In this document: positions 4,901 to 62,324 of the stretch, one piece after another
Layout: every line of letters begins with the position of its first letter
How positions within the stretch are numbered: position 1 is the stretch's first letter
NCBI GenBank assembly: GCA_022432975.1
Contig: CM039511.1
Span: 21,292,557 to 21,356,556, forward strand
Reading direction: 5' to 3'
Length of the DNA stretch: 64,000 nt
From: Begonia masoniana
Lineage: Eukaryota; Streptophyta; Magnoliopsida; Cucurbitales; Begoniaceae
Notes under the pieces: model-generated
Told to the model about the DNA's origin: nothing
Seen by the model: only the letters and a program-made list of their open reading frames with translations
The model's database searches: none
Made by a program: the position numbers and the translations under genes

Positions 4901-5028
4901 TGGTGTTGGTGACATTGAAGAAGGTGAGGGTAATGTACCTCAACCAGATGAATGAAGCAGTTGAAGAAGAATGTCCGTGGTAGGGCGCTCGTGGCTGTTG
5001 GAGCGTATTTTGACCCGTGGGCTATGTG
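1982..5028 (+). mobile_element. Forward chromovirus LTR, 5' part, interrupted
   Basis: The LTR begins TGTAACACCCGAAAC at 1982. Its 3' part reappears at about 20905-21649 on the far side of a nested element, ending GTTGTCACA and followed by a primer-binding site. Without the hAT insertion at 2180-3555 the two parts sum to about 2.4 kb, close to sister LTRs. The shared LTR landmarks are present: a splice-donor-like AAG|GTAAGT at 4364/4365, the inverted repeat AGATGGAG...CTCCATCT (4714-4757), and the short frame GDIEEGEGNVPQPDE-stop (4908-4955). The acceptor before that frame is GTTG rather than GTAG. The far 3' end of this element was not found. Confidence 0.7.
2180..3555. mobile_element. hAT-like non-autonomous element, 1.4 kb
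   Basis: The right end reads CCATGCCCACCCCTA, the complement of a TAGGGGTGGGCATGG terminus typical of plant hAT-like MITEs. The left end (GGCAGGACCAGACTGAGG) matches the family but lacks about ten terminal bases. Both ends are rich in GGTCCGGTCCGG/GGACCGAGG words. Stretches near 2230-2345 and 3419-3530 match, in reverse, the 500 bp element at 25675-26174, so both belong to one family and this is the longer copy. No transposase frame is present. A 78-codon frame at 2372-2608 has no recognisable domain. Confidence 0.65.
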
Positions 5029-7337
5029 TGTAACGTCCCCTTTTTCTTTACCTTAAAATTCTCATAAAATTTTTTTTTCGACTTTATTTAATGACTTTAT
5101 TCATTTCCTCGAGCGACATCGTTTAAAATATTAAACCTTGGTAGCGGAAGACTATCGTGTTTGGAAGACTCGTTATAAAGTAAAATTAACCAAAATCCCA
5201 AGTTTGACACAATAAAAAGAACCCCGGTCGACCCCCAAAGCTTTCGGTCAACACTTCATAATAGTGGTGGACCACTCCTAATAAGGGTCGACACTCCATT
5301 TGTCTCTGGTTTTTATTTCTACTGAAACCGGTTGACACCTTGTAACAGCGGTCGACACCTTGTCTGGTAGGGGTCGACCACTGCTGATAGGGTCAACACC
5401 TCATTTGCCTTTGGTTTTTTGTTGTATTGAAACCGGTCAACACCTTGTAACAGCGGTTGAAACCTTGCCTGATAAGGGTCTACCCCTGCAGGCACAGGTC
5501 TACCCCTCGTCTGGTAGTGGTCGACCCCTGCAAGCACAGGTCGACACTCCGAAGGCAATTTTTATATTTTTTACACATTCAACATCTCCAATCTCCTCCA
5601 TATTTAGCCAACTCTACATACTCAATATCAATTCACCTTTTCCTTATGAAAACGGGTAGCATAACCCTATACTTACCTCTAACCAGAATTTACCTAATCA
5701 ACCACCATCCAGAAATTTCATAATCATATAACTATTTAACATCATTCGAATTACTTTACAAGTTTTCTAATTAAATCTTATACGTCTATCATGTCCCAAA
5801 ATGTCTATACATACTTCAAAATACCTATACTTCACCCACGGGTCAATCACGCTCCGATAGTCCCAAACGCACCACCAGAGTCATCATCCGCCAACCGCGT
5901 CACTCGTCAGGTTGAGGTACTAAATCCTCACCTTGATCGTCTATGTCACCTACACAACAGAGACATCTATGAGCCAATACTCAGCAAGTCATCGTAAATG
6001 TAAATGCATGCTATACATATGCAGTTCATAAAATATGCAGTCAATTCATCCTTTTGTTACATAGCAGGATGTCACAAGAGGTTTACTCTTACCAGATGGA
6101 GGCGACACATCCTGCAGTTGGATAGCCCTCTCCATCTACTGGGGGAAAAACATGCTCCTCATCTCAGGACAGCCATGTCTGAACCCCACCCTGACATGAC
6201 CGTGATTACATATATTCATATCTTTTTATTAGTCATTTCTTTTTCGTAAAACATGCGCATAAACTCGTTTTCATGCCATTTTGAAAAGATGTGATGCATG
6301 GACAGTTCATATTGCATAAACTTATAAAAAGCAAAAAAAAACAATTAATAGAGACATAAAAGACGTTCTATAGCTTAAACATCCTAACTACCCATCCAAA
6401 TTACACTAAACAATCTAAAACACCAAAATCCTCAATAACATCTAATCATCGTGGTGTAGGTCAACTCAGCCAAGTAAATCACGAAGACTTACCTTGTCTC
6501 CCTTGAGATTTAGTTTGAAAGTCCTTAGCTTTGCTTTTGCCAATCGTAAATAACCTAACAATAAATCAAAATTAAACACTTAACACACACAAGTAAATTT
6601 TTGGATTTTCACACTTAAATTTTTTGTCCAACTTAGAATGCTCATAACTTTTTCGATATAACTCGAAATTGAGTGATTCCAAGTCCTATGGACTCCTCTA
6701 AGAGTTCTCTTTCTAATGGTGCAAATCATTCAGCAAATAAAATTCAGAATATAGAGTAGAATTCCAAAAACCTGAGCTGCTCTGTTTTTGACACTTTCAA
6801 AAAAACCAATTTCTCCCTCTTTGTAAACTAATGCACCAATTGTTCATATAATCTAATACTTTATCCTTAAAGTGTCATTTAAACACATTCAACTCAGCAA
6901 GAAACCCATTTTTTAGGGAAAATTCGTAGGTTAGGGCTTTTGGAGAAAATACATTCCACTAAAACCTCAACAAACCCTAGTTTATCACTCATAAACACCA
7001 AAATTGAGTAACATTAAACCCAAAAACTCAAACTCACCTTGAATCTGCACCAAATCAGAGCTAGGGCGTGGGAGAGAGGGCTGGAAATGGAGAAATGCAG
7101 AGGGATATCGTTGGAGGGAGAGAGAGAAGAAGATAGGGTTCTTTTTATAAACATTGGCTTATTTACCCAATTTGCACATAACTTTTAATTTCATCAAAAC
7201 TTACCCTCTTTCTTATTCCTATCATTTTCCACTCTTTTCATCTCAAGCTATTTTATATCAAAAGTATATATTGCATTGACGAAATATATGTACAAAATGT
7301 TTTAGGGATAAAACATATAGAAATTTTGAGTGTTACA
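5029..7337 (-). repeat. 3' LTR of chromovirus 1
   Basis: On the minus strand it starts TGTAACACTCAAAATTTC (at 7337) and ends GGGGACGTTACA (at 5029), length 2309 bp. The polypurine tract AAGGAGGGTGGAA lies immediately 5' of it (7338-7350). Reading minus strand, it carries a donor-like AAG|GTGAGT near 7037, a second donor-like AAG|GTAAGT with GT at 6492-6491, the inverted repeat pair at 6094-6105/6126-6137, and the short frame GDIDDQGEDLVPQPDE-stop at 5950-5900. The last 500 bp contain a GTCGACC-rich minisatellite. Confidence 0.85.
5205..5560. repeat. GTCGACC-type minisatellite in LTR
   Basis: Roughly 10-12 imperfect units built on GGTCGACAC(C/T)(T/C)TTG and GGTCGACCCCTG, many containing the palindrome GGTCGACC or GTCGAC, with spacers such as TGTAACAGC and TCTGGTAG. 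It occupies the same place in the LTR as the unrelated minisatellites of the other LTRs in this window. Confidence 0.7.
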
Positions 7338-7377
7338 TTCCACCCTCCTTAAACAAAATTTTATCCCCAAAATTTGA

Positions 7378-10720: not shown

Positions 10721-10725
10721 CATTT

Positions 10726-13217
10726 TGTAACACCCAGTTTTACGGGTTTTCGATTGTCCACTACATAATGCCATTTTTGTAAATATAATAAATTAAGCCC
10801 GCTTTACGAACGGAAAGTTTCATTAGAGCCCTAGGAATTTATGAGGATTTTAGAGGAATAAAGAAGTCTTCGAAAATTCAAACCGATAGGGTAACACCCG
10901 AGTTTCGACTTTCCACTATATAAGGTTAAAGTCGTAAATATAGCAAAATAAGTCCGTTTTACGAACGGATGGTTTATAAATTGAAATTTTTGACAAAATA
11001 AGGAAATGTGAAGAAACCGATTCGATAGACAAAATAACGAAATAGATAACGAAATAATAAAAAAATCAAGAGGAGGGGCAAACTTGTCTTTTGACAAGTC
11101 AAATTCATTAAACCTTAACTCTCCTCTCTTCCTTCCCCACTTCTGCGAAAATCTCCAGAGGCTTCTCCGTCTCTCTGGCGACTTGGCTTCCAACGGCTAT
11201 TCTCCTCTTCTTCAACGATTCCTCCTCCAATCGATCAATCTTCTTCACGTTTCCTTCTCCAAACGACGTCCTAGGTATGATTCTATAGTTTTAGTCCATT
11301 AGTTATCGATTTCTAGGTTGTTAAACAGTTAGAGTTTCGTTAGATTTTTGTCAAATTAGTCGGGTCAGGTATCACCGTATTTATGATTATTGAGCGTAGT
11401 TAGCCAAAATAATGGATGTATTTGGAGTTTTGGTTAAAAATTGGATATTTGAAGTTTTGGAAAACTCCATTAATAAAAGTTTATGATTTGCGAGCGTAAA
11501 TTGCTCGACGAAATGTCTGAGAGAAGTTAATTAGAATTTTAAGAAATTTCCTTTAGCTAGGAGTTTCGTTAGCCTTCGAAATTTGATTTCCTAGGATCGA
11601 TTTTAATGACGATTGTTATGGATTTTCTTAGGTGAACAACGCTCGTGGACAGAGCTTGGATTGCTATGGACGCAAGGTAAGTCTTCCTGAATTGTTTGGC
11701 CGATCCGGCCTATACCATAGGAGAGTTAATTGTTCGAGGATATTGGTGAAGCGATTGTTAGTGTAGGTTGGATGGGTAGTCTAGGATATTTGTTATGTTA
11801 AAATGTTTTTTTTCTTAGGTTCTATATATTGTTTATGCTTTTCTTACTTTTATTGTACAACTCCATGTTCATTCATCATGTTTTACAAGCTAGCACAAAA
11901 AATGAATTTCCGCATACGTTTTCATGAAAAGAAACGACTAAAGAAAGATATGAATGTATGTAATTATGGTCATATCAGGGTGGGGTTCAGACATGGTTAT
12001 CCTGAAAGAAGGAGCATGTTTTCCTCCGGTAGATGGAAAGGGTTATTTAACCGCCAGATGTGCCCTCTCCATCTGGTGAGAGCAAACCCCTGGTGATGCC
12101 TATGCTATGTAACTAAAGAATGAAAATGAATGCATGATTTTATGAACTGCATACGCATAGCACGCATTTGCATTTACGTAGATTTACTGAGCCCTTTAGC
12201 TCATAGGTTATTTCTATGGTGTAGGTGACTGTGATACAGGTGAGGATGACATCCCTCCACCCGATGTATGAGCAGGTTGAAGAAGTGTGCCCGTGGGAGT
12301 GTGCTAGCGTAGTCGGTGCTATTTTGACCCGTGGGGGGACGACGTAAAGGTATGTTGGTTTAGAGATGGGTAGAAATTGTATGGATAGTGTATTTGATGG
12401 ATTAGCCTAGAAATTTGTGATGAAAATGGTTTATGGATAATTTGTGAACGGGAGTATAGAAAGTCTCAGTGATAGTTTTTGTTTTGGAATTTTACTGGAC
12501 TACTTGGTGACTTAAGTTTCATAGGGGGTTTGTTAAATTTTCAAACAGATCCATGTAGTTTGTTTTTATGAAATTTGGCTACATTTTTATATGTTTCGAG
12601 TAGTTTTTGGACGATTGGTGAATTGAGGAAATGTGTGAGGATAAAGGAGTTATTATGTTAAATTGTGAATGAGTACTGGGTGATGTAGGGATACGGTGAA
12701 GGAAGAAGAACTGTTAAGTGTGTGTGAAAAAGGAAAGGAAAAGGGTGCCGGCTCTCTGGAGTTCAAACTCCAAAGAGTAGGGCGATCGATCGCCAGAAAA
12801 GGGCCGATCGATCGCCAGAAGAAAGGGCGACTCTCTGGAATTCCAGAGAGTCTGCCGATCGTTTGCCAGAAAAGGGGCAAACAATCGGGTCTTGCAGGCT
12901 ACGCTCTGGAAGAAATTCCAGAACGGCAGCCGATCAATCGCCAGAAAGGGGCGATTGATCGGCTGTTCAACGGCCGATCGATCGGCTATCAAGTGGCCGA
13001 TCGATCGCCCCTTTGTTTTCTTGTTTCGGACATGTTTGCCCCCAGCTTTTGCACTGCATTTTCCCTCTGCTTAATACATGGTTTTATTTGAAGGATTTTA
13101 GACAAATTCAACAATCCAAGACTTCGATTTAGAGGTTTAGAAGTTAGAATTTTATGAGTGTTATAAAAAGAAAAATTTATACGGAAATTTCGAGGTATAG
13201 GATTAGGGGATGTCACA
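10726..13217 (+). repeat. 5' LTR of the TR-GAG element
   Basis: Runs from TGTAACACCCAGTTTTACGG to GGGGATGTCACA, 2492 bp. The first 165 bp are followed by a diverged second copy of the same LTR start (GTAACACCCGAGTTTCGAC at 10892). The second copy holds a TATA-like TATATAAGG (10917-10925), whereas the first has TACATAATG at that place. Other landmarks are donor-like CTAG|GTATGA near 11274, acceptor-like TTCTTAG near 11631, donor AAG|GTAAGT at 11676/11677, hairpin arms AGATGGAAAGGG (12031-12042) and CCCTCTCCATCT (12063-12074), branch-like TTACTGAG near 12184, and the frame GDCDTGEDDIPPPDV-stop (12224-12271). Confidence 0.85.
12770..13015. repeat. CGATCGATCG minisatellite, 5' LTR
   Basis: Repeated palindromic CGATCGATCG, or near copies of it, alternates with GCCAGAAAAGGGGC-like and CTCTGGAATTCCAGAG words. 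The latter are themselves inverted repeats. The block sits between the conserved short frame and the LTR 3' end. Confidence 0.7.
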
Positions 13218-13222
13218 ATTTA

Positions 13223-13237: not shown

Positions 13238-13378
13238 CGGGTTTTAAAATCGCTTCTGTAGACTGCTCGACTGCACAGCCACTACGCGGACATCCTTCCT
13301 CAACTGTAAGTACGTTTTTAAGTTTTCTTTTTGATTTTTTTAGTTTTGTTGTTCTTCAATTTTTATAGGATTTCAAAA

Positions 13379-16543: not shown

Positions 16544-19016
16544 TGAAACATCCGGTTTTACGGGTTTTTGATTTTTCACTACATAATGCCATTTTCGTAA
16601 ATATAATAAATTAAGCCCGCTTTACGAATTGAAAGTTTCATTAGAGCCCCAAGAATTTATGAGGATTTTAGAGGAATAAAGAAGTCTTTAGAAATCCAAA
16701 CCGATAGGATAACACCCGAGTTTCGACTTTCCACTATATAAGGTTAAAGTCGTAAATATAGCAAAATAAGTCCATTTTGCGAACAGATGAATTTATTAGA
16801 ACCCTAGTAATAAATTGGAATTTTTGGCAAAATAAAAAAATATGGAGAAACCGATTCGATAGACAAAATAACGAAATAGATAACGAAATAATAAAAAAAT
16901 CAAGAGGAGGGGCAAACTTGTCTTTTGACAAGTCAAATTCGTTAAACCTTAACTCTCCTCTCTTCCTTCCCCACTTCCACGAAAATCTCTAGAGGCTTCT
17001 CCCTCTCTCTGGCGACTTGGCTTCCAACGGCGATTCTCCTCTTCTTAAACGATTCCTCCTCCAATTAATCAATCTTCTTCACGTTTCCTTCTCCAAACGA
17101 CGTCCTAGGTATGATTTTTATCGTTTTAGTCCGTTAGTTCTCGATTTCTAGGTTGTTAAACGGTTAGGGTTTCATTAGGTTTTCGTCAAATTAGTCGGGT
17201 TATGTTAGAAACGGTCAGGTATCGCCGTATTTATGATCATTGAGCGTAGTTAGCCAAAATAATGGATGTATTTGGTGTTTTGGTTAAAAATCGGATATTT
17301 GAAGTTTTGGAAAACTCCATTAATGGAGGTTTATGATTTGCGAGCGTAAATTGCTTGACGAATGTCTGAGAGAAGTTAATTAGAATTTTAGGAAATTTCC
17401 TTTAGCTAAGAGTTTCGTTAGCCTTCGAAATTCAATTTCCTAGAATCGATTTTAATGACGATTGTTATGGATTCCCTTAGGTGAACAACGCTCGTGGACG
17501 GAGCTCGGATTGCTAAGGACGCAAGGTAAGTCTTCGTGACTTGTTTGGCCGATCCGACCTACACCATAGGAGAGTTAATTGTTCGAGGATATTGGTGAAG
17601 CGATTGTTAGTGTAGGTTGGATGGGTAGTCTAGGATAATTGTTATGTTAGAACGTTTTTTTCTTAGGTTCGATGTATTGTTTATGCTTTTCTTACTTTTA
17701 TTATACAACTCCATGTTCATGCATCATGTTTTACAAGCTAGCACGAAAAATGAATTTCCGCATACGTTTTCATGAAAAGAAATGACTAAAGAAAGATATG
17801 AATGTATGTAATTACGGTCATGTCGGAGTGGGGTTCAGACATAGCTGTCCTGAGAGGAGGAGCACGTTTTTGCCTCGGTAGATGGAAAGGGCTATCTAAC
17901 CACCAGATGTGCCCTCTCCATCTGGTGACGCCCATGCTATGTAACTAAAGAATGAAAATGAATGCATGATTTTATGAACTGCATACGCGTGGCACACATT
18001 TACATTTATATAGATTTACTGAGCCCTTTAGCTCATAGGTTATTTCTATGGTGTAGGTGACTGTGATACAGGTGAGGATGACATCCCTCCACCCGATGTA
18101 TGAGCAGGTTGAAGAAGTGTGCCCGTGGGAGTGTGCTGGCATAGTCGGTGCTATTTTGACCCGTGGGGGGACGACATAAAGGCATTTTGGGTTAGAGATG
18201 GGTAGAAATTGTATGGATAGTGTATTTGATGGATTAGCCTAGAAATTTGTGATGAAAATGGTTTATGGATAATTTGTGAACGAGAGTATAGAAAGTCTAA
18301 GTGATAGTTTTTGTTTTGGAATGTTACTGGACTGCTTGGTGACTTAAGTTTCATAGGGGGTTTGTTAAATTTTCAAACAGATCCATGTAGTTTGTTTTTA
18401 TGAAATTTGGCTACATTTTTATATGTTTCGAGTAGTTTTTGGACGATTGGTGAATTGAGGAAATGTGTGAGGATAGAGGAGTTATTATGTTAAATTGTGA
18501 ATGAGTACTGGGTGATGTAGGGATACGGTGAAGGAAGAAGAACTGTTAAGTGTGTGTGAAAAGGGAAAGGAAAAGGGTGCCGGCTCTCTGGAGTTCAAAC
18601 TCCAGAGAGTAGGGTAATCGATCGCCAGAAAAGGGCCGATCGATCGCTAGAAGAGAGGGCGACTATCTGGAATTCCAGAGAGTCTGCCGATCGTTTGCCA
18701 GAAAAGGGGCGAACGATCGGGTCTTGCAGGCTACGCTCTGGAAGAAATTCCAGAGCGGCAGCCGATCGATCGCCAGAAAGGGGGTGATTGATCGACTGTT
18801 CAAGGGCCGATCGATCAGCTGTCAAGTGGCCGATCGATTGGCTCTTTGTTTTCTTGTTTCAGACATGTTCGCCCCTAACTTTTGCACTGCATTTTCCCTC
18901 TGCTTAATACATGGTTTTATGTGAAGGATTTTAGATAAATTCAACAATCCAAGACTTCGATTTAGAGGTTTAGAAGTTAGAATTTTATGAGTGTTATAGG
19001 ATTAGGGGACGTCACA
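16544..19016 (+). repeat. 3' LTR of the TR-GAG element
   Basis: Runs from TGAAACATCCGGTTTTACGG to GGGGACGTCACA, 2473 bp, collinear with the 5' LTR with scattered substitutions and short indels. It shares the duplicated start (second copy from about 16710), donor AAG|GTAAGT at 17525/17526, hairpin arms 17880-17891 and 17912-17923, the frame GDCDTGEDDIPPPDV-stop at 18056-18103, and a CGATCGATCG block at 18600-18845. The first base pair block TGAAACATCC has changed from TGTAACACCC. Confidence 0.85.
18600..18845. repeat. CGATCGATCG minisatellite, 3' LTR
   Basis: Counterpart of the block at 12770-13015, with the same alternating palindromic words and several point differences. It shows how the array looked before and after the element's last replication. 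Confidence 0.65.
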
Positions 19017-19638: not shown

Positions 19639-20898
19639 CTAAGATTTCAATTCTTTCAATTTAGTAGGTGCCAATCTGTACAGATTCTTCGACACAGGTT
19701 CAGATCCTGGGTATACATCAATAACAAATTCTAGTTCTCGGTCTAGAGGTAATCCTGGAAGATCATCGAGAAAAATCTCTGGAAATTCTCTAACAATTGG
19801 GATATCCATTGGCGTTACCTCACTGAATAATCGAGCATCTATTACTCTGGCCAAATAGACTGAGCATTCATCTTTAAACATCTCCCAGACCATCATCGAA
19901 TAGGAGATAGGAAGCCCACTCGTTCTATTCATCGTCTGAAAAGTGAACTTTTCTCTATTTGGAGGCTGGAAGGATACTACCCCAGATCTACAGTCAATAG
20001 TAGCAAAATGGTAGGATAGCCAATCCATTCCCAGAATAAGATCATATCTTTCTATACTCATTACTATCAGGCGACCAAAAAGCGTATTATTTTCTATAGA
20101 AATAACATTGCCTTGGAATACTCGATCTGAATTCATACATTCCCCCGAGGGCAGCATTACACTAGAAGAACAATCTGCTAACTCTATCACCAAGTTTAAT
20201 CTAGCTACACACTTACTAGAAATAAAGGAATGCATAGCCCCTGTATCTATTAAAGTAAAGATTACTACGCCGGTAATCAAAACAATACCTAAAATAACTG
20301 AAGGTCTAGCATCTTCATCAACATCACCAGGCTCGATGAAAGTGAATATCCTCGGCATAACTCTCCGTTGACCTCTGCCTGGCTGGTCTCTACCTGGTTT
20401 CGGGCAATATTTAACAAAATGGCCCGTCTCTCCACATCGGAAACAAAGATCTGTACCTATTTTACACTCGTCAAAATGTTCATTCTGGCACTTAGGACAC
20501 AAAGGCTTCTGAGAAGTTCCTTGTATCTGTTTCCCTTTGCCCTCGTCATTCTTTCCCTTATACGGCCTTTTAATACCCCTTTGTTGCTGTGGTTGTTGTT
20601 GTCCTCTTAGCTGCCAACCCCTGTTCTAAGGTTGAAGTTCTCTGAAGAAACCTATTGCAGGCTCCCTCAGCTTAACAAATTTCTGTTCGACCTCATCTAC
20701 TTCCAAGGCCTTGGCTACAATACTCGCATAGGGAACACCCAGAGTCCCCGATATCTTCACGCTCTTATAAATTTCAGGCTTCAGACCCTGAACAAATTGA
20801 TGCACTTTATCCTCATTATCACTTACCAGATTAATTGCAAATTGTGATAACGCTTTGAACTGCCAAACAAGTAACTTATAGATAGTTAGATTTTCCAT
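19639..20898 (-). pseudogene. Chromovirus 1 gag and protease
   Basis: At 20898-20626 lies the end of the gag body ([16 protein letters not shown]). After a stop region, 20502-19639 carries a nucleocapsid zinc knuckle (CFRCGETGHFVKYC), the aspartic protease motif LIDTGAMHSFIS, and the linker into RT ([16 protein letters not shown]). Gag and pol are in one reading direction as in chromoviruses. The N-terminal half of gag is absent because the element is truncated at about 20900. Confidence 0.8.
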
Positions 20899-23208: not shown

Positions 23209-26200
23209 TGTAACGAACCTTAATTAAACCCTTGTACTATTCCTAAAAAATCCCATGAAATTTAAACTTTTATTCGTATTTTGATCATGCATGCATAAGG
23301 GTGCTCAACCCCGTTCAGCAGAAGACTATTCATGTGTGAAAATTTCCTCTCGGGTTCTATCACTTAATTTCTCTCGGAATAAATAATCACTTAGTTCTTC
23401 TCGGGTTTCATCAATTTAAGCAGTGGAGGAGGATGTTTCTCTCTATCGGGTTTGGACGACGGAAACATAAGGAAATACCTCTCGGGTTTCATCAATTTAA
23501 ACAGTGGAGGAGGATATTTCTCACTTGGGTTTGGACGATAAAAACCTTAGGGGGCATAGACGACAAAAACTGTAGGCAGTGTGGACGACTGAAAACAGTA
23601 GTCAGTGTGGACGACCAAAAACTGTAGGCAGCATGGACGACTGAAAACTGTAGGCAGCGTGGACGACTGAGTTTCTCTGCCAGAATACTTTAAACTTTAT
23701 CGTCCACATTCGTTCACGTGACTTATTCGTCCACGAGACTTATTCGTCCACATGACTTACTTGTCCACAGGCTACTTAAACCCTATTCGTCCACGGGCTC
23801 TATTCGTCCCCGAGGCTTGGACATTGACTTTGGATGATGACTTTCTTACAGAAACACTTAACTGAACTTTATCGTCCACAGACTTTGGACGATGACTTTC
23901 TTACAGAAATACTTAACTGAAACTCATACAATTTTCCCCCTGTTTCACCCATTACCCGAACGATTGCCCCTTTCTGGCGATCGATCGGATAGCTCTCTGG
24001 ATTTTGTTCATAGAGCTGTTTTCACCATCTTTCCCCTGCATAATCTAAAATCATCAAACAACCTAAAACGGCACTTCTCAACTCAAATCATCAAACCTAT
24101 TACCAACCTTAAGCCAATTCAATTCATTAAAATCTAATCTATTTCAATTATCAATCAACCCAGTTCATCAATCTCCAAACATACAAAAACATTTCTCCCA
24201 ACAGAAACATATATCGTAAAATCTCCAAAGACAACAAAGTTTTTTAAAACATTAAAACATCTATCTATCAATTATCCAGGTACCAGACATCTTAAAATGA
24301 TTCTATCTACACAAATCTCCTATCTGATCCACCATCAGCCAAAAATATCCCAGAAATCCTCAAAACACCTACTTACATCCCAATGGGTCAAAATAAGCAA
24401 CAACTGCCCAGTGCACTCCCACGGGCACACCTCTTCAACCAGCTTATACATCGGGCAGAGGAATCTCATCCTCACCTGTATCGAAGTCACCTACACCATA
24501 GAGATAAACTATGAGCTAAAGGCTCAGTAAATCTACGTAAATGAAGATACATGTCGTGCATATGTAGTTCATAAAATCATGCAGTCATGTTCATTTTTTA
24601 CATTTCATAGCAGAGGGTGTCACCGGGGGTTGACTCTCACCAGATGGAGAGGGCACATCTCGCAGTTAGATAGGCATTTCCATCTACCGAGGGAAAAACA
24701 TACTCCTCCTCTCAGGACAGCCATGTCTGAACCCCACCCCGGACGTGACCAGATTACATGCATTCATATCCTTTCTTTTAGCCATTTCTTTTCATGAAAA
24801 CTTAATGCGGGAAATTCCTTTTCATTTTTTTCTGAAAACTATGATGCATGAGCGTGAACGATGCATTAAACATAAAACAAGCATAAAGCAGTAAATAAAG
24901 CTTAGGCAGGACGTTCTATAAATTGTAAACACCCTATCTACCCATCCAGCCTACACTAAAGCATTAAAATCACCAAATCCTCAACCAATAACTCTCTTGT
25001 GGTGTAGGCCAAATCGGCCAAACAAGTCACGAAGACTTACCTCGCATTCTTAGCACGCAGAGCTTTTCGTTTTGAGCTGGTCCACCTAGAACATTTCACA
25101 ACCCACGACATTAGAACCGAGCCTAAATCATCGAACTTTCAAAATCTCCAACATTTACCAATAGATTAACCAACTACTTCCAATAATCGCCAATACATCC
25201 ACTAGAGTCATAAATAACGGAAACCCTTCCATTTTTAACATAAACCATCAATTTCGATAAAACCCTAAATGAAACCCTAGTTAATAATAACTCCAAAACT
25301 TGTACAACAACGTCCTTAAGCATAGAATCTTACCTAAGGTCGCGATTTAAGAAGAAAACGTGGAGACGGATCTATGACCGGAGGAACACCGTCGACGGGC
25401 TGTGAAGAAATGGAGGCGATGAAGAATCGCCAGAAAAGCTCACTGGAGTTTTTCTTTCGTGGAAGCAGAGGGAACTGAGGGAGAGAGAGGAATACTTAGG
25501 TTTTATAAATGTTTTAACACTTAAATTACCATATTACCCTTTATTTGATTTTTCTATTAATATTCCTCTTATTCGTTAATTAGTCTATAAATTCGGTTTC
25601 TCCAAATATTTCGATTTATTCCTAGGGTTCCGATTTATTCCTAGAGTTCCAATAAAACTTTCCGTTTACAAAACTAGGGGTGAGCATGGTCCGGTCCGGT
25701 CTAGTCCGGTTTCAAGCCGGAATCGGACCAGACCAAAGGATTCAGGATTTTTTTTCCTAATCCCAGAACCGGACCAAAATTTTCGGTTCGGTCCCGGTTT
25801 CTCCCACAAATTTTTTTTTTACAGTAAATTGCAATAAAAAAAAATTAAAATTTCCTCTAAGGACATGTTATATACAATCAAACTATTTCCTACAAAGAAT
25901 TAAAAGACTACAAATGATAAATTACATAGAGAAGAGAAACTGAAAGTTTGAGATTTGTAGAAAACTGAAACTTTGAACCTTCTTCCCCCTTAGGCCGAGC
26001 CTTAAATGACTATTGAATTAAAGTTTCAGTCCGGTCTGGGATTTCGGGAAATTTTGGTCCTGGACCGAGAACCGGACCATTTCCCATGGGAATTCTATTT
26101 TTAGAACTAAAACCGGACCAAAACTGGTGGTCCGGTCCGGTTCTCGATCCTCGGTCCAGTCCTGCTCACCCCTACACAAAACGAACTTAATTTACTATAT

Positions 26201-28755: not shown

Positions 28756-29582
28756 GAAAAAGGAAAAGTTTTAAATTTCACTCAAGCCACTGTAGCCGAC
28801 ATCTTCTACTCTCGGCGATTTCTCTTTCCCCGAGCTCGCACCCCGCCTGCTAGCAATCTCCCTTCGACGACCGGTTTTTCCCGCCATTTCCTGGATACTC
28901 TACGCCCGAGGTATGAGTTTGTCAATGTAGTTATCTGTTAGTTGATTAGCCCTGCCTTCTGCTTAGCATTGTAGTTTTGGACTTTTCTAATGGCCGACTA
29001 ATAATAAGGATATCTAAAATCTGAGAGTTGTAGTGTTATTTATCGAATCAATTCTGGGCATTTTAGATTAATCAATAGTCGAATCTGTCGGTCTTGTTTT
29101 TGGGATTTCAGACTACACTGAGTATTAGACTAAGGAAACTCGGGAATGACTTTAACTAATAGATCCTAGGATGATTTATGAGTAGAGTTTTAGGATTTTG
29201 ATTTAACTACTGTAATGCATATGTTTTAGGTGAAGAAGTTGAAGAGAAAAGGTTCAGATTGCTAAGGAGACCAGGTAAGTGGATGTATTAGGATTTCTAG
29301 CCACTAGGGCCCTACACCATAAGGATACTAGGAGAAAAATTGTTGAAATGTTTAACTGATGATTTTGACTAGTAGTTTGCCATGATATGAAGTATTTGAG
29401 CAGGAAGATGTTAAGTTACATGATGTTCTACTCGTTCATACAGTATGATATTCCTCTGTGAAAATTCTTGTCCATGCATTATGTGCTCGTTTATGATTAA
29501 GTTAAGAATATGAAAAGAAAAACAAATGTAAGCATGATTAAGCGCGGAATGGGGGAAATGACTATGACATGTTCACAAGGCT

Positions 29583-29815
29583 TATGTATGGCTCGCGAAT
29601 TCTCCCACTGGTGGAGGCCGAGTTGATGATAAGCATGGCTCGTGAATTCTCCCACTGGTGGAGGCCGAGATAATGATAAGTATGGCTCGTGAATTCTCCC
29701 ACTGGTGGAGGCCGAGATAATGATAAGTATGGCTCGCGAATCTTTCTACTGGTGGAGGCCGAGATGATGATAAGTATGGCTCGCGAATTCTCCCACTGGT
29801 GGAGGCCGAGCTAGT
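29583..29815. repeat. 47 bp tandem repeat in chromovirus 2 LTR
   Basis: Five units of about 47 bp, each containing TATGGCTCGCGAATTCTCCC followed by ACTGGTGGAGGCCGAG and a spacer GATAATGATAAG. The 3' LTR copy is at 36807-37039. One unit of the 5' array (AATCTTTCTACTGG) has a cluster of changes absent in the 3' copy, suggesting unit-level mutation or conversion. Minus-strand frames through the array are translation artefacts of the repeat. Confidence 0.85.
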
Positions 29816-35770: not shown

Positions 35771-35800
35771 GCAATTTTCGAGGACGAAAATTTTGTTTAA

Positions 35801-43403: not shown

Positions 43404-46228
43404 TGTGACAGCCCGGAACCGGATCCCGATCGGAATCCGAGAACCAAGCCGTCACTCCGGACATTTAACGGAAAACGGTGACTATTTTTTTTTTATCAAA
43501 ACAGACTGAACATTTACAAAACTATACACAGAGGGAGAGAAGATGTTCTCTGGTTTGAAAGCAAAACGGGTTTCACTGAAGAATGGCAGAAGAAAACCGA
43601 AATGCAAGAATGTAGACGGAAAACAATTAGGAATCAGAATACAACAAAGTGACAGAAGGAAAGCAGGAAGACAGGGATATTAAAGAGAAACTTAAACTGG
43701 AGAAGAAACATACTGTGGAAGGCTACAGTGTATAACAGAAACCATAGACAATCGAGGATGAATAATAGAAGAGAAAAAGGTAAAACAAAAAACAGAAATG
43801 GGCGATAAAACATAGAAACAGAATAAAACAGGAAGACGTAGGCGGAAGACTTAGTTTAAAAACCAATAAAATACTGTTGGGCGGAAGATGTGACCTGACG
43901 TCAGGCGGAAGATGCATTTGCAAAGACAAAAGTAAGGATGACGTCAACCGGAAGATACAGACAGCAGAGGAAATCAAATGAAATGATGACGTCAGCCGGA
44001 TGATGGATGACGTCAACCGGAAGATACAGACAGCAAAGGAAATCAAATGAAATGATGACGTCAGCCGGAAGATGGATGACGTCAACCGGAAGATACAGAC
44101 AGCAGAGGAAATCAAATGAAATGATGACGTCAGCCGGAAGATGGATGACGTCAACCGGAAGATACAGACAGTAGAGAAAATCAAATGAAATGATGACGTC
44201 AGCCGGAAGATGGATGACGTCAACCGGAAGATACAGATAGAAGACGGAATTCGGATGAGGTGATGACGTGAGCCGGAAGATGGATGACGTCAACCGGAAG
44301 ATACAGACAGCAGATGGAATTCGGATGAGGTGATGATGTCAGCCGGAAGATGGATGACGTCAGCCGGAAGATACAGACAACAAACAACACCGGATGAGAT
44401 GAAGACGTCATCGGATGAGATAATTGAACTGGGCGGTGGAGGTGGATGACGTCACCGGTGGATATACACTTAAACAACAGTGGACGTGATAGGATGATAT
44501 AGTCTAAAAGGGGCAGAGTTTGAAAACTTTTAACAGAAAAACATACGGGCAGGGAGCATCAAAATAGAAGGCATAAGGGTTTCAAACCTTCAAAACCCGA
44601 TTCAAAACAAGATTTTTGAAACACACTTTGCAGATGATAGATTTCAACTAACAGATTTAAGAAAGACAGACTGCATGGATAGCTCTAGAATTCGAGACCA
44701 TCCATGCAAACCTTAAAACAAGAAAATATTCTAAAACATTTCAGAACATTCAGGACATGAGTTCAACTGTCAAATACAGTGATTTCTAAAGCTGAGACAT
44801 CAGAACTTGTACATTGTTCTAAAAGTAAAACCTCTGAATCAGTACAGAACCTAACATGCAATTGCAGAATCTACCAAAAGAAGAGTTTTTACAGAATTTT
44901 ACAACACAACCAGAACTTCCAGAAGACTTACAGATATAGACATTACAGAAAACTTAAACCTCGGGTCAGAATTTGTCTTGTGTAGCAACCACACCCCCAT
45001 GAGCTCGATCCACCAGCCACCTATTCATCAGACTGAGGCACGAAGTCCTCATTTTTGGGTTCAGTACCTACATCGGGGAGTTCACCTATCAGTCTAAAAC
45101 TCAATAAGAACATATATATATATATGCAGTGATGCAAAATGCTATGCATGCGGTTTTCAGAATACAGTGACAGTACAGAACATTACGTTTCAGTGGCAGA
45201 GGGGTATAAGTGGGGATTATAGGGGAACTGGCGAACAGTAGGTGCACTATCAGGCACAACAGAGATACAGAACATAACAGAAACAGATCTGGGGGCCAGT
45301 CCCCGTCCCACACTTAACCGGTACATTTCAGTCAGATTTTATCTTGCTTAACTTCAAAACCGTGTACAGAAAACAGTTTTGCATGAACTTTCAGAAAATC
45401 GTGTATGCATGGACATTTACAGTGCTTACAGTTGATACAGCAGAGAACAAGAAGATAAAACAACAGGAACCTGAACAGAAACCACAGAACTTAACTCTAA
45501 CCCTTCTACCCGAAACCAGCCAACAGAATGTAGAACCTAGTACCTCCGAGATGTAAGACCTTAAGGGCCAACCTACAGATATGAACTTACCTGTTATCCG
45601 CGATGCAGTTGACTGGAAAGTCTCGGGAATGCACAGATCTGTAACAAACACGTAAAGAAATAAACAATGCTACAAATGCTAACAATAAGTTAGAAGAATC
45701 AGCAGCAACACGTTTCAAATCTTTAGAAAACACACCAACGTGTTTTCATCCAACGACAGTGAGCTTTCACTAAATACCAAGCCCTAAACTTCGGTAAAAA
45801 CCCACATTAAACTTGTCCAAACTTGTTAGCATGAGTAGATGCTTACCTTTTGCTGAAGGAAACAGAAGAATGCAAGAGAAACAAGGTTTGGTACTTTGTT
45901 TCAGTCGCCAGGAAGAAAGAAAGCAGAGAAAGAAGAGAAGAAGCAGAGAAGTGAACTAAGGGGTTTCACGTAGGAGGAGTATGTCTTGTTCAGCAAGTTG
46001 TCAAGTGTCGATAGCATATTGGTTTCTTCCCACCAAACTTAATTAGTTCTCTATTTTACCCTTCCATCCATTTTAAACTTAGTGTTTTGTTTAGTTACAC
46101 ATTAGTTTGGTTCTCCCCTCACTAAATGCTCCAAAATTTTACAATAAAATAGTTATTGTATTTATGGCAATTTAAATCCATACAATAATTCAACAGATTA
46201 TTACATGGCAAAAATGCCGGGTGTTACA
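43404..46228 (-). mobile_element. Solo LTR, target duplication TCACG
   Basis: Minus strand runs from TGTAACACCCGGCATTTTTG (46228) to CCGGGCTGTCACA (43404), 2825 bp. Perfect TCACG copies lie at 43399-43403 and 46229-46233. Landmarks (minus): donor AAAAG|GTAAGC near 45846, donor ACAG|GTAAGT with GT at 45590-45589, acceptor-like CTGATAG, and a 21-codon frame GELPDVGTE...EDFVPQSDE-stop at 45086-45021. It carries a large TGACGTCA minisatellite. No internal region is present. Confidence 0.85.
43890..44470. repeat. 69 bp tandem repeat with TGACGTCA palindromes
   Basis: About six units of 69 bp. Each has GGATGACGTCAACCGGAAGA and GATGACGTCAGCCGGAAGAT joined by an ACAGACAGCAGAGGAAATC spacer. I count 13 exact TGACGTCA palindromes, which is a classical bZIP/TGA-factor binding core. 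The last units are more diverged. Minus-strand frames of 85-166 codons across the block are artefacts of the repeat. Confidence 0.85.
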
Positions 46229-46342: not shown

Positions 46343-48977
46343 TGTGACGGCCCGAGACCCGATTCTGATCGGAATCTGAGAGCCAAGCCATCACTCCGAG
46401 ACATAATAGAAAAACACAGACTATATTTTTTTTTTTGAAACTTTTAGAACGTTATAGGGAGAAGAAACCTTCTCTGGAAATGGGACTGGATGACATATGT
46501 ATAAAATTGGATGACAATTACAGTTCGAAAAAAAAAAACAGAAGACAGAGGACAGAGGACTTTTATAAATCGAACCTTTAAAACTTCTCAAAGAGAGAAA
46601 ACTTTCTCTGGATTTTCAAAGTAAACGGGAAACAGTTAATTGGATATCATGCAGGAAGTAGGGCTACAGTGAATGACATGATCGAGTGATAAAAGGCGGG
46701 AGAAGTAAATAAACAGACTGAAACTTTTAAAAGCAAACCCTTAAAAACATTACCGAGCGATAGAACTTTCTCTGGATTTAAAAACTGGGAGCTAATTTAA
46801 AACCGGATCACAGAAGTGAATAACAGAAGAAACTGGGAAGAACAGGGTACAGAAAGGGACGATGAGAATAAATAAAGAGAATTAAACAGGAAATAAATGC
46901 GGAAAAACATAGGCAGAAGACTGGCGGAAGAAGTGGATTTTAAACAAATGTGAACAGTGACAATGGTGGATGTGAATAAGACAAAATTGTGCAGTGGCAG
47001 CGGTGGATGTGAACAATCAAAGGCAGCAGTGGATGTGAATTTTAAGAGCAGCAGTAGATGTGAAAACGACAAAAATGAACAGTGACAGCGGTGGAAGCGG
47101 GCAGAAGTGCACTGTTCACCGGTGGACGTGAATAAGACAAAACAGATGACGTTAGGCGGAAGATTAAATTGTAAAGACAGCAGTGGATGCAGTTTTAAAC
47201 GGGCAGCGGGCAGCGGTGGATATGATTTTACAAGTAACGGTGAACGTGATTTTTAAAACGGGCAGCTGTAGAAGTGAATTTAAAGCAGCGGTGGACGTGA
47301 TCGGAAGATGTAGTTTAAAAGGGCAGAATTTGACAACTTTTGATAGGATTACACCGAAACAGAAATCGTGAAAACAGAAAGTGTGAAAGCTTCACGCTTC
47401 AGAGAAACGATCCACAACATGATTTTTGGGCATATCAAGAAAATACGACAGAGTTCTAAGGAAACAGATCGCATGGATAACTCCAAAACCAGAGATAAAC
47501 CGTGCACACCCTAAAAGAGAAATATTCCAAACAATTCCAGAATACTTCAAAATATACACAACTGTCAACTACAGAATTTTTAAAACTTAAACATCAGAAC
47601 TGATACATTGTTTTAAGATCTGGAAGACTGTACAGAACTCGATATACATTACCAAAACTTCACCAGACAGGGGTTTTCAAACATCAACACCAATTCTATA
47701 CACCGGTTTAAAATTTCAAAAGTTATACAGGACTTGACAAAATTTTAAAATACCCTCACAGAAACAGAATGTGTCTGGCTACAGCAACCAACCCCCATAA
47801 GCTCGATCTGCCAACTACTTCAAATCATCATCTTGAGGCACAAAGTCCTCGTCCATGGTTTCAGTACCTACATCAGAGAGCTCACCTATGAGTCTAAAAC
47901 TCAGTAAGAACATATAGGGGAACTGGCAAGTGCACGACAGACACATAACAGATTTACAGAACAGAAACAAAACAAAATAAACAGAGCTGTACAGAACAGT
48001 AGGCCAGTCCCCGTCCCGCACTTAACCAATACATTACAATCCGATTTTTATCTTTCTTAACTTCAAAACCGAGCACAGAAAATTTTTGCATGTCTTTCGG
48101 GAAAATCGTGTATGCATGAGCATTTACAGTGCTTAAACATAAAACGGCAGACAACAAAAATATTACAATAGAACGTAATGTGTGACACAGATAACTCAGA
48201 ACTTAACTCTAACTTTCTATACCCGAAACCAACAGACATAAGAAATACCTAGTATCTCCGTGATGTAGGGCCTTAAGGGCCAACCTACGGATATGAACTT
48301 ACCTGTTTGCTGTAGAGTTGATAGTCTTGAACGTCTCGGTTATGTACGGACCTAAAACATGCACGTAGAGAAAATAAACAAGCTGCAAATGCTAACTAAT
48401 AATTTGTAGAATATGCTCCTAACTCCATTCAGACTTTTAGAAAACAAACCAACGTGTTTTCATGCAATAACAGCGAGTTTTCTCCAAAATATCACAACCC
48501 TAAACTTCAACAGAACTGTCATTTTAACTTGTCTAAACACGTTAGCATAAGCAGATGCTTACCTTAGGCAGAAACAGAAGAAAATTCAAGGAAGATCGAA
48601 GGTAATTCGATGGATGATTTTCGTCTGGAAGAGAGGAAACAGAGAGGAAAGGATGAGTGTGAAGGTTCACGTAGAAGAGAGGAGAATAGGTAGGTTTATC
48701 AGCAAGTTATTGACATTTGACAACCATCCATTGGCTCCCTCCCACCAACCTTAATTCCTTCCCAATTTACCCCTCCATGTATCTCTAACTAATGGTTTCG
48801 TTTACTCATACATTAGTTTGGTTTTTATCTCATTATCCAAATATACATATTTACATGTAACAATATATAATTTCCATCGATTTGGTTTCCAACAAAACGT
48901 TCATTGTATTAATACCAAATTAATCCCACATAATGATTCGAGAAGAAATTACATAGGCAAAAATGTCGGGTGTTACA
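46343..48977 (-). mobile_element. Solo LTR, target duplication GGGTA
   Basis: Minus strand runs from TGTAACACCCGACATTTTTG (48977) to TCGGGCCGTCACA (46343), 2635 bp. Perfect GGGTA copies lie at 46338-46342 and 48978-48982. It is the same family as the LTR at 43404-46228. Landmarks (minus): donor TAAG|GTAAGC near 48560, donor ACAG|GTAAGT with GT at 48302-48301, and a 23-codon frame GELSDVGTE...EDFVPQDDDLK-stop at 47886-47815. A one-base indel relative to its sister puts a stop into the upstream short exon. GCAG(C/T)GGTGGATGTGAA repeats occupy 46920-47300. Confidence 0.85.
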
Positions 48978-49569: not shown

Positions 49570-51803
49570 TGTAACGACCCAGACACTGTACCCTATTTCC
49601 CGTACGAAATTCTTCTTTTTCTTTTTATACTTAGCGTTTAAGTGGAAAACGATTTAATAAAACGTTTAAAAAATTTCAAAACTATTATTTAAACTAACAC
49701 GCGCACAAACACCTACAAAATACACCTCACCATTTCACTAACGCAATTCTATCTATACCACGAATTATAACTACATCACAAACATACACTTCCCAATACG
49801 ACTTAACTTTAAACCACTGATACTCCTACATCTCCGAAATCTCACTCAGAACGACTCGAGATATAATTAAACAAAACACATTTTCACGAAAACAAACTGC
49901 ATGGTTCCGTTTAAAAGTTTAACATATCCTCCTGTTTACAAAATACCAAGCAGTTCATAAAAATCCAAATAAAAACCTTAACAAACGTTTTATAAAACAA
50001 ATCTATCAACTAAACAGAACCAAACACCCTAATATGATCAACTATACATTTTATAATACCATTAACATAAATCTATCACCTAACCAGATCCAAGCATCCT
50101 AATATGATCAACTATACATTTTATAATACCATTAACTCCTCCAAAATACTTACATACATCCCAAAATACCAACTCCTCCAAAACACTCACATACATCCCA
50201 AAATACCTTTACATCATTCCCCACGGGTCAAAACGCGCCTCGACTGCCCAGCGCACTTCCACGGCCATCATCCATCAGCTGCATCATACGTCAGGAGGAG
50301 GAACGCCATCCTCACCTGGTTCGATGTCACCTATACGTCACCTACACCATACAGACACCTATGAGATAATTAAATCTCAGTAAGCTACGTAAATGCAGAT
50401 GTATGCGTGCAGATGCCATTCAGAAAACATGCATGATACAGATTCAGATACAGACAGATACAGATTCAGATTTTATTACGTCGCAGACAGATTGTTACCG
50501 AGATATCAGCCCACTAAATGGAAAGGATACATTCCGCGGTCGAACTACCACTTTCCACCTAGAGGAGGGGGGTACATGCTCACAAACCCTACAGCCATGC
50601 CTGAGCCCCACCTCGCGTAACCAGATACAGATACAGATTACGTAGATTAATTACAGAGGTTCATTTCATTTTCTTAAAACACGTGCGGAAATTCATTTTC
50701 ATGACTTTTAAATACGTGATGCATGAACAGTTCATATAAAAGTAAACATATAGACAGAGCATACCATCAAAACTCAACAATCAACCTATACACATATAGA
50801 CAGAGCATACCATCAAAACTCAACAATCAACCTATACACACATAACTTAACTACCCAACCAAATCAATAAAACAAACAATCATTTAAGATCCTCGACGCT
50901 AAATCGAAGTACGGTGTAGGCCAATTGGCCAAAGAAGATCACGAGAACTTACCTGTCGTCCGTAGCTCGTTGGTTTTGCCACATCACGTCACATATGGCT
51001 CGACCTATGTCAAACATTCAAGCCTCATTAAAATCAAGCCTACATTCACTAATTTCTCTCAAATTACTATTTCTAGCCCAATCCAATTAAAATCTAACTA
51101 AATGGGCCACTATTTTGGGTTCGGTAAAACCGACCCGAAACTTCGAACGCGCGTAACTTTCGCGTCGGTTATCGGAATCGAACGATTCCAGTGGCCACGT
51201 ACTCCTCTAATAACCTATTTTAATCTGCCAAAATGAATTTTAAAACAAATAACCGGAACTAGGTCAAAAAGGGCAAAACCCGAACTGCCCCTTTTACCCA
51301 AAATTTCTCTTTTTCGATTTTTCATCAAAACTCTCTCAATTCATCACTAATCTATCCTCCTAACATCCAATTAACCTAAACTAAGCGGAATTTCAAGGCA
51401 ACACACTAAACCCGAAATCCCCCAATTCGGGATTTACTAATTTTCGCACAAATTGAGCTCACCATTGCTCGGCAGCCATCGCCGGTGTTAAACCCGACCA
51501 TTCGACGCCAAGAACGGCCACAAAGGGCCGGCGATCGGAGCTCAACAGAGCTCGCCGTTCCCGGCCACAAACCGAGCAATAAACAGGGGAGAACTCACCG
51601 ATTTTTCGGTCGAGTCAGGCGCGGAAAGGCTGGACCGAACTCTGGCTTCAGCTCGCCGGAGTCTGCTCGTCTGAACGGTGGTCGGAGCCGCGTCGTCGCC
51701 GGCTCACTCTCTCTCTCTCTCTCCGGTTTCCCCTCTCGGCGTCGGGCTTGAACGAACGACAGAATGGTTCAAAACCATTCTGTCGTTTGTTTTATGTTTA
51801 TTT

Positions 51804-60371: not shown

Positions 60372-60471
60372 NNNNNNNNNNNNNNNNNNNNNNNNNNNNN
60401 NNNNNNNNNNNNNNNNNNNNNNNNNNNNNNNNNNNNNNNNNNNNNNNNNNNNNNNNNNNNNNNNNNNNNNN
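60372..60471. other. Assembly gap, 100 N
   Basis: Exactly 100 N, the usual placeholder for a gap of unknown size. Sequence on its two sides does not belong together: AT-rich unclassified sequence on the left and the middle of an LTR on the right. Confidence 0.98.
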
Positions 60472-62324
60472 TAGCAGTTTATTTAAGATACTGTCTGTTT
60501 ACTTATGTTGATGTTGAATTAATGGTATGATTTCACGTCGGATAAATGCACTATTCTGTAGCTTGATGAGTTAAGAGTTCTCATGTTCATGCATCATGAA
60601 TGTTTTATGCATATGAAAATGTTTTAAGAGCATGTTTTCTTCATGAATAAGATAAGAATATAAAACTTATGCAACATGAATTAAACGAGGGTTGGGGGCG
60701 GTTTGGCGTATGTCACTGTCCAAAAGGAAGGACCATGATTACGACCCACAAGGGTCTATGTACACTCTCACTGTCAACCCCCTTTACCGGCACAAATCCT
60801 CTCTTAATCCACACAACATGAACGAAGAATATGATTGATGAACATGAATGATGAATATGAATGATGAGCATGAATGATGAATGAACGATGAATACGAACG
60901 ATGAACAAGAATGAAGACTTTGAGTATGAATATGAACAAGAAAAGATTAATGAGCATTTGTTTCTTAAAATGAGCATTCATGCATACTTGTTAGTATTGC
61001 ATTCCTTACTAAGCATTATGCTTATAGTTTAAACCTTATGATGTAGGTGAAGATTTAGCAGGTGAGGATTCCAAATTCAGTGATGATGTCTAAGGCTGGT
61101 TGCAGGATGGTGCTCAGGGTGGAAGTCTGTGGCTAGCAGGCGAATATGACCCGTAGTTATGCTCATAATGTGTCAGTAAGATTTATGATGAACTGATGTT
61201 TAAGTAGAATGAGATTTTCTTTAGAATATTGGATTCTGTGATTGTCTAGTTTGGTTACCAAAATTTGGGGATGATTATAAGGGTATAGAATGATCTGTTT
61301 TAATTAAGTCTTCCGCTACATGTATCCTAGATGAGTTTATGTTTTATGTCTGCCTATGTTTATGTCTACGAGTATGAGATCTGTGAAGGTCAGATTATCT
61401 TTCTGTCGATATGAGTTGTTTGAAGTTTTCTGTATTTTACTACTGTGTGATAGAAGTTGGATGAATACATTATCCGGCTGACGTCACCGGTGTGAGCTGA
61501 ATGATAGAAGCTGGATGGGTGAATCATCCGGCTGACGTCACCGGTGGATGGCGAACGTTTGTTGTTCACCGGATGATGTCTCTTATCGGTTGAGGTAAGT
61601 GAGTCACGTATATTGCACATGCTTACCGGATGATGTCTTTGTTGAATGAGGACATCATCCGGCTGATGTCATCGGTGGATGGGGACAATTGTTGCCCACC
61701 GGATGATGCCTCTTACTGGCGATGTTAAGTAGTCACGTGAGATGCACATGTCTATCGGATGATATAAATGTAGTTTTGTCGTCTAGTGACCGGGTGATGT
61801 AGTGTATTTCAAATATCGGATGACGTAAGTGAAGTTTTGTCGTCTAGTGACCGGGCGATGTAGTGTATTTCAAATATCGGGTGATGTACAATGGATTACG
61901 TGCACTGCACGTGCCCATCGGTAGATGACCTCTACCGGGCGATGTCCATTGAGTCACGCGAAGTGCACGTGACAGATCGGATGGTGTGTACCCTATCAGC
62001 CAATGCATGCAAACCCATGTAGCCCGAACAGGATGACGTCGAGTGATCTGAGGGCCTTTCTTCTCTGCCCGATTATGTCATGGAACTGATAACCAAGCAT
62101 AGTCGCTCGATTCTGTGAACTAATGATATTAGATTTATGAAAGAGTTGGGTTTTAGATGGTTTAGTTTTTGTCAGATGATATTTTGTCCGCGAGTCAAGT
62201 TTTAAGTTCTAAGTTTCGAGAAATAAAAAAAAATAATACTGATAATGAACAAGGTGCTGAAAGTAAGAATTAAATGATTAAGAAAGTCATGAATTATGTC
62301 TCGGCTCTACTGGGGTCGTTACAG
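60472..62324 (+). mobile_element. Forward LTR, 5' end lost in gap
   Basis: Ends GGGGTCGTTACA at 62324, inserted into minus-strand gypsy pol. It is the same family as the LTR at 26281-38517, sharing ACTGTCC...GACAGTGA blocks and the GTCAACCCCCTTTACCGGC segment. It has branch-like TACTAAG near 61007, acceptor GATGTAG, and frame GEDLAGEDSKFSDDV-stop at 61046-61093. About 0.5 kb of its 5' end, including the donor sites, is missing. Confidence 0.8.
61440..62000. repeat. CACCGGATGATG minisatellite in LTR
   Basis: Irregular copies of (T/C)(C/A)ACCGG(A/T)(T/G)GATG, CATCCGGCTGA(C/T)GTCA and GTCGTCTAGTGACCGGG. It contains exact TGACGTCA twice. Related in wording to the block at 30360-30900. Confidence 0.7.

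Follow-up and report, generated by a model that had tools for sequence, protein, structure and literature searches.

A predicted Gag tail exon in the long terminal repeats of a Ty3/gypsy retrotransposon family of Begonia masoniana

The window analysed here is a 64,000-nucleotide stretch of the 795-Mb genome of the plant Begonia masoniana (assembly GCA_022432975.1, contig CM039511.1, positions 21,292,557 to 21,356,556; contig C10 in our numbering). It is crowded with long terminal repeats (LTRs), most of which start with TGTAACAC, and the 120 listed relatives of its pol sequences are mostly plant retrotransposon proteins. The best-preserved element, at 28588–38415, is bounded by 2.6-kb LTRs of 98.3% identity and has a purine tract and a primer-binding site (PBS), TGGTATCAGAGC, which we take to be of the initiator Met-tRNA type. 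Pfam families Retrotrans_gag, RVP_2 and RVT_1 are found in that order within it, so that gag, aspartic protease and reverse transcriptase lie between flanking LTRs, as is usual in Ty3/gypsy LTR retrotransposons. Its gag-pol is a single frame from the gag ATG to the end of pol, broken by stops; in the fetched genomic loci L186, L187 and L190, gag also continues into the protease, gag and pol forming one frame. The lineage is presumably that of the Tekay/Del-like chromoviruses; the last piece of pol gave a Pfam match to PF24626 (SH3_Tf2-1) only and none to a chromodomain. The LTR anchor word of the family occurs at least 5,514 times in the genome.

Twelve LTR copies in the window, named below by their first coordinates, contain a short acidic open frame with an equivalent stop. 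This was the core of the original prediction, made from the letters of the window alone, and both frame and stop were verified at all 12 coordinates. Copies 12224 and 18056 are the two LTRs of one element (10726–18998; LTRs 92.4% identical and about 3.4 kb apart, the element being perhaps non-autonomous) and copies 30024 and 37248 are those of element 28588–38415; therefore, 10 of the 12 copies are independent. The eight window copies parsed by script have one layout: a CT-rich exon 1, intron 1 (208–483 nt), exon 2 (five copies with 45 nt and one each with 48, 49 and 62 nt), the donor AG/GTAAGT (a slash marks a splice site), intron 2 (435–750 nt) and the acceptor of a third exon, E3, which holds the acidic frame. 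TATA-like words were noted by eye in some of the eight. The perfect upstream donor announced for 11 copies is present in all 11 that have sequence there, while copy 61046 has an N gap at this place; the word AGGTAAGT occurs 15 times in the window, and 11 of these occurrences are the donors in question.

Other details of the predicted splice signals needed amendment. A TAG-type acceptor had been claimed before every frame, but copy 4908 reads TTG instead, and the starts proposed for copies 45021 and 47815 were moved to a TAG 18 nt later (GATGTAG/GTACTGA), which aligns better with the other acceptors and leaves 15 and 17 codons, respectively. The acceptor of copy 50284 carries an 11-nt duplication (read by eye). 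The branch-like words TACTAAG or TACTGAG precede the acceptor in 9 of the 12 copies, the remainder having TGCTAAG, TGCTGAG or TATTGAG. The two copies said to have a stop in the middle exon are 47815 and 50284; exon 2 of the latter is the same as that of locus L094, which has the stop. One subfamily (L069, L074, L083 and others) has a doubled E3 acceptor, 12 nt apart, e.g. GTGTAG/GTGACGTTATAG/GTGAC in L083, which would add four in-frame codons.

Words of the 12224 type of E3 number 826 in the genome, compared with 0 for the reversed control. In an aligned module of six copies, E3 is the only shared frame open for at least 12 codons with the stop in the same column (6/6); one reverse-strand frame flagged as the same merely runs off the end. 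The window copies alone give a weak signal, with position 3 more variable (p 0.045) and an NG86 ratio of nonsynonymous to synonymous rates (dN/dS) of 0.35–0.49. A larger sample of 60 copies (L126–L185, all on contig C1) was picked by TTTTGACCCGTGGGG, an anchor that follows E3 at a distance of about 100 nt; since this anchor is outside the frame, the E3 frame itself is unselected in this sample. An E3-type frame was found in 58 of the 60 copies, typically reading G[DE][FIL][ED]xGE[DE][DE][VI]PPP[DE]x-stop. The pattern AGG[TC]G[AC] served to place the E3 starts, and motif likeness decided among several fits, which introduces a mild bias; the T of the acceptor TAG, the only informative base given this pattern, is present in 54 of 55 copies. 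Two loci without a start (L131, L145) and three mis-started ones (L130, L182, L183) were dropped, leaving 55 copies for the rate test on alignment columns, and three with insertions (L129, L147, L170) were left out of the residue table, leaving 52.

Substitutions per site at E3 codon positions 1, 2 and 3 are 4.3, 2.2 and 8.3, compared with 6.4 in the other, flanking columns of the 55 copies (permutation p 0.001), and the periodicity statistic of E3 is 5.1, with no more than 2.47 in 208 other windows. The acidity is kept: Asp or Glu occupies residues 2, 4, 8, 9 and 14 in 52, 45, 49, 47 and 48 of the 52 copies. The perfect donor lies inside the examined stretch in 37 of the 55 copies. Some measurements pull in the opposite direction. 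The stop is not strictly fixed, being at codon 16 in 37 of the 58 copies and three codons later (codon 19) in 15. The dN/dS (omega) of E3, 0.68, is not below the lowest of 183 control windows (0.62), and the control windows with the lowest omega sit just past the stop in frame +1. In a further sample of 40 copies (L077–L116), E3 has the lowest forward omega (0.63), yet reverse-strand windows go down to 0.52; this sample was picked by a pattern inside E3, which biases codons 1–8, and codons 10–15 give 0.62. Omega understates the constraint on E3, because many position-3 changes swap Asp and Glu. It is very likely, judging from these substitution patterns, that E3 codes for an acidic C-terminal tail, and the codon-position rates and periodicity of the 60-copy sample bear out the earlier suggestion of a small coding exon under selection. 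Other frames were considered as well. A +1-frame open reading frame (ORF) or frameshift was rejected, since omega over E3 is 1.01 in frame +1 and 1.58 in frame +2, as was an unspliced ORF through the end of the intron, with an in-frame ATG in only 4 of the 12 copies (30024, 37248, 45021 and 47815). The +1 frame just past the stop (omega 0.62–0.67) is less likely to be coding: its periodicity is far below that of E3, and it has no single common open peptide in the 55 copies.

The exons upstream of E3 behave differently. Observed-to-expected ratios of ATG are 0.08 in exon 1, 0.22 in exon 2, 0.64 in intron 1, 1.89 in intron 2 and 2.58 in E3 after the stop, as counted in 14 of 40 genome copies, the rest having no recognisable exon-1 donor, exon 2 or exon-2 donor. 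The last 170 nt of exon 1 hold no ATG in six of the eight parsed window copies and three in the other two, where the stretch may extend beyond the start. Exons 1 and 2 thus resemble a 5′ leader. Of the 14 genome copies, one has an in-frame ATG open to E3, and in the window exon 2 supplies such an ATG in two of the eight copies (24444 and 37248); in-frame stops in exon 1 occur in window copies 24444, 5900 and 18056 and in one of the 14 genome copies, stops being rare anyway in this CT-rich exon. The body of exon 2 has 6.6, 6.5 and 5.7 substitutions per site at the three codon positions, thus evolving like the introns (5.2 and 4.7) or faster; its omega is 1.04, and it has gained 12 stops where 20.2 were expected (8 against 11.7 and 6 against 8.7 in the other frames). 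Judged by these rates, exon 2 is not coding. With no codon constraint in exon 2 and few in-frame ATGs upstream, the start or coding partner of E3 must lie elsewhere, and the leader peptide originally envisaged, reading through the middle exon into E3, is not supported. The splice signals themselves are constrained, as had been proposed: the acceptor AG of exon 2 and its donor AG/GTAAGT show 0–2 substitutions per site.

A further short predicted intron of about 63–65 nt lies between the PBS and the gag ATG at two of three PBS sites in the window and in six of six fetched elements (L186–L191), 8/9 overall; the third window PBS, at 21655, is followed by other sequence that lacks it. The retention of this intron suggests that the packaged RNA may be unspliced. 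Intron 2 has peculiarities of its own. A GGCC(N)GGCC-like palindrome is present in its first 60 nt, directly after the donor, in most of 11 aligned copies (about 4365–4412, 11677–11724, 29275–29330 and equivalents) and is a candidate structure of the unspliced RNA only. Tandem repeats of 47 bp occur in intron 2 (29536–29872 and 36760–37096), and others of 61 bp follow E3 within the LTRs (30470–30591, 37694–37815 and 61753–61874).

A candidate partner for E3 is located at the border between gag and protease. Directly downstream of the zinc knuckle and an acidic spacer, the protease opens with (V/I)xGTI, in which the Gly codon is GGT and the preceding codon ends in A, giving AG/GT. Such an NNA-GGT, in phase 1, was found at 13 of 13 places with the protease motif, the residue before Gly being A, S, T or L; these places come from the window and the loci L117–L125 and L186–L206, the other fetched loci of the set being without the motif. 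The 12 distinct sequences vary at all but 3 of the 81 third positions in the surrounding 240 nt, and two of these three are the donor bases. At other places, GGT accounts for 13 of 65 GGN codons and NCA for 74 of 254 NCN codons. A genome pattern that left both donor bases free gave at least 5,790 matches (reversed control, 1); among the first 100 matches listed, all on contig C1, NCA-GGT is kept in 99 and GGT in 100, with neighbouring third positions varying, a count made by eye on copies that are related and not independent. This synonymous conservation exceeds what protein coding needs and would be explained by a splice donor; from the codon data, selection on the gag-border donor is highly likely. 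The donor is in phase 1, the phase of the E3 acceptor. Splicing into E3 from the 3′ half of pol was also considered and rejected, since no phase-1 donor there passed the conservation filter.

We propose, with a probability of roughly 0.65, that E3 encodes the C terminus of Gag: the exon would be kept in the LTR and recruited from the 3′ copy, by joining the gag-border donor to E3. The joining, the spliced RNA and its part in Gag supply are predictions from sequence. Full-length RNA would serve for Gag-Pol and as the genome. In a minority of transcripts, the donor (usually CAG/GTA) would be joined to the acceptor of the 3′-LTR E3, removing pol, U3, exons 1 and 2 and intron 2; as both sites are in phase 1, the Gly codon would be re-formed at the junction, as in the reading ...V-I-A-G-D-I-E-P-G-E-D-D-V-P-P-P-D-V-stop. 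Translation would then yield Gag, zinc knuckle included, with a 15-residue acidic tail of the consensus G-[DE]-[FIL]-[ED]-x-G-E-[DE]-[DE]-[VI]-P-P-P-[DE]-x followed by the stop, without protease, reverse transcriptase and integrase; an example of the predicted peptide across the end of Gag and the tail is ...VIAGDIEPGEDDVPPPDV. The outcome would be an excess of Gag over Gag-Pol. Exons 1 and 2 would be separate from the tail, forming an ATG-poor spliced 5′ leader, with the short intron between PBS and gag ATG in addition; the E3 of the 5′ LTR would not be needed. Element 28588–38415 illustrates the predicted intron, although its gag is broken by stops. It also seems rather probable that a widespread lineage of plant Ty3/gypsy elements carries such a coding exon in its LTRs, unused in the 5′ copy and serving as the last exon of Gag from the 3′ copy, so that splicing across pol would set the Gag:Pol ratio and the dedicated acidic tail would be under selection.

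Other readings of the same data were weighed. The phase-neutral 45-nt exon 2 (5/8 parsed window copies, 13/14 genome copies) and a joined exon-1 frame that is open in 13 of the 14 genome copies would fit a spliced leader of LTR exons 1, 2 and 3 encoding a small protein that ends in E3; the intron-like rates and neutral omega of exon 2, the depletion of ATG in both upstream exons and the near lack of in-frame ATGs open to E3 make this highly improbable, and the joined LTR peptide has no protein relative among 76 candidates (none at E up to 1). It is quite unlikely, too, that E3 is untranslated and conserved as an RNA or DNA element, such as a purine-rich splicing enhancer beside the acceptor. 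Such an element could account for the GA-richness of the stretch, for the alignment of the whole module, with intron 2, at 73–79% between subfamilies, and for the conservation that by eye extends about 85 nt beyond the E3 stop, but it would not need a position-3 rate above that of the flanks together with a position-2 rate of about one third of it, in one frame only. The donor at the gag/protease border might also be real and joined to another acceptor, locally in pol or at exon 2 of the 3′ LTR, E3 being served by a different gag-pol donor. In the copia superfamily, EVD and BARE1 splice to acceptors close by (PMC12786077, PMC3735527); gag-pol holds several phase-1 donor-like words, and with a 45-nt exon 2 a gag–exon 2–E3 product would likewise be in frame. 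This reading is nevertheless unlikely: no pyrimidine-rich YAG is common to 10 ungapped sequences within 600 nt after the donor, where one purine-rich YAG occurs at +127, and exon 2 lacks coding constraint.

Several observations count against the proposed joining of gag to E3. The presence of other phase-1 donor-like words in gag-pol means that the pairing is not unique, and the predicted intron has a length of 4.85 kb in the window element, long by plant standards. A genome search for the joined gag/E3 word gave no exact match among the places listed; with up to two mismatches there were 276 matches, of which the 100 listed all have one or two mismatches and by their look are ordinary LTR acceptor contexts, with the exception of C1:29920332, which may be an insertion. 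The joined exon 2/E3 word of one subfamily had 0 matches in the genome. Such absences are weak evidence, because a spliced Gag RNA, lacking U3, presumably could not give rise to an ordinary LTR copy. A protein search with the Gag end, which had a single candidate, turned up no Gag-length protein carrying a tail of this kind.

Gag-only splicing is established in copia elements, including Drosophila copia and barley BARE1 (PMC3735527) and Arabidopsis EVD (PMC12786077, PMC8892269). In most plant retrotransposons, gag and pol form a single ORF (PMC3735527), and plant LTR elements are generally without introns, with Ogre and EVD as exceptions, according to a 2025 review (PMC12786077). Short Gag isoforms are made by two copia elements of sunflower, where Tekay elements are absent from the expressed set (PMC7730604). 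The Gag-only mRNA (shGAG) of Ty1/copia elements resembles the case predicted here in its shared Gag-Pol frame, a donor close to where gag ends, translation that ends soon after Gag, and Gag excess; in contrast, the B. masoniana element is Ty3/gypsy, and the terminal exon predicted for it, a coding, conserved and acidic one with its own stop, would lie in the 3′ LTR. In BARE1, a 104-nt intron leads to a stop three residues past Gag, and in EVD the protease is removed and a frameshift gives an early stop, both unlike the E3 tail. Among Ty3/gypsy elements, splicing of transcripts is noted for Ogre and for CRR, which loses rt (PMC3735527). The latter is the nearest gypsy precedent encountered; its splicing takes out part of pol, but the sentence concerned in PMC3735527 mentions neither a Gag tail exon nor an LTR acceptor. 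Ogre (Ty3/gypsy, Tat lineage) is likewise a plant element in which partial splicing decides the proteins made; however, its intron lies between gag-prot and rt-int and removal joins them (PMC6317226), whereas the splice predicted here would remove pol. An Ogre-type intron was not found in the family studied: protease and reverse transcriptase are in the gag frame and the predicted splice removes both.

Foamy viruses and human T-cell leukaemia virus have the major splice donor inside the R region of the LTR. The LTRs of the window share a donor in the LTR with them, but hold two full introns and a coding exon. The Sag protein of mouse mammary tumour virus, like E3, is encoded in the 3′ LTR, but by a complete ORF that has a start of its own, whereas E3 would be a 15-codon tail without a start. 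Among the papers listed by a literature search, judged from titles and abstract openings and outside subscription papers, there was no recognisable report of a Gag exon in a Ty3/gypsy LTR. In IMG/VR, one search gave 0 matches, there was no confirmed pol relative and 4 pattern matches were obtained; GTDB contigs gave 64 pattern matches, and no alignment with the window was obtained for any of the 68.

Table 1. Features of the window that are part of, or adjacent to, the predicted splicing scheme (window coordinates).
Feature	Coordinates	Strand
Gag/protease-border Gly codon G/GT, element 28588, predicted phase-1 donor aCAG/GTACC	32396..32398	+
Gag/protease-border donor, second element, tTAG/GTATT	20287..20289	-
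Predicted long intron (protease, reverse transcriptase, ribonuclease H, integrase, U3, exons 1 and 2, intron 2), element 28588, pairing inferred	32397..37248	+
E3 copy 1, GDIEEGEGNVPQPDE-stop, acceptor mutated to TTG	4909..4955	+
E3 copy 2, 16 codons	5900..5949	-
E3 copy 3, 5′ LTR of element 10726–18998	12225..12271	+
E3 copy 4, 3′ LTR of element 10726–18998	18057..18103	+
E3 copy 5	24444..24490	-
E3 copy 6	27246..27292	-
E3 copy 7, 5′ LTR of element 28588–38415	30025..30071	+
E3 copy 8, 3′ LTR of element 28588–38415; predicted terminal Gag exon	37249..37295	+
E3 copy 9, acceptor re-assigned, GTEPKNEDFVPQSDE-stop	45021..45067	-
E3 copy 10, acceptor re-assigned	47815..47867	-
E3 copy 11	50284..50330	-
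E3 copy 12	61047..61093	+
Leader exon 2, 45 nt, non-coding, 5′ LTR of element 28588, donor AG/GTAAGT	29230..29274	+
Leader exon 2, 45 nt, 5′ LTR of element 10726	11632..11676	+
Leader exon 2, 62 nt, copy 5900	6493..6554	-
Leader exon 2, 45 nt, copy 24444	25041..25085	-
Intron 1, 5′ LTR of element 28588, after CT-rich exon 1 ending at 28910	28911..29229	+
Intron 2, 5′ LTR of element 28588	29275..30024	+
Short predicted intron, PBS to gag ATG (ATG at 31355), element 28588	31282..31344	+
Predicted PBS–gag intron, element 10726	13306..13368	+

The window also contains a CP12 gene (PF02672) amid the LTRs, at 56494–56955 (-), a Transposase_32 piece at 38935–39780 (+) and a TAXi_N protease piece at 52620–53003 (-). 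The ORFs at 40707–42147 (-) are presumably MULE-like (Mutator-like); the two pieces scanned had no Pfam match. An Rfam scan of the window gave no family at the gathering score, and no tRNA was found.

The route by which plant Ty3/gypsy elements obtain excess Gag has, to our knowledge, been little studied. An exact donor, acceptor and tail peptide can now be named in an abundant family, which makes the question testable with long-read RNA. The data suggest that LTRs can hold coding exons, which bears on the annotation of LTRs and on chimeric host transcripts. If the proposed splicing is real, an acidic Gag tail supplied from the 3′ LTR would let the element make extra capsid protein.

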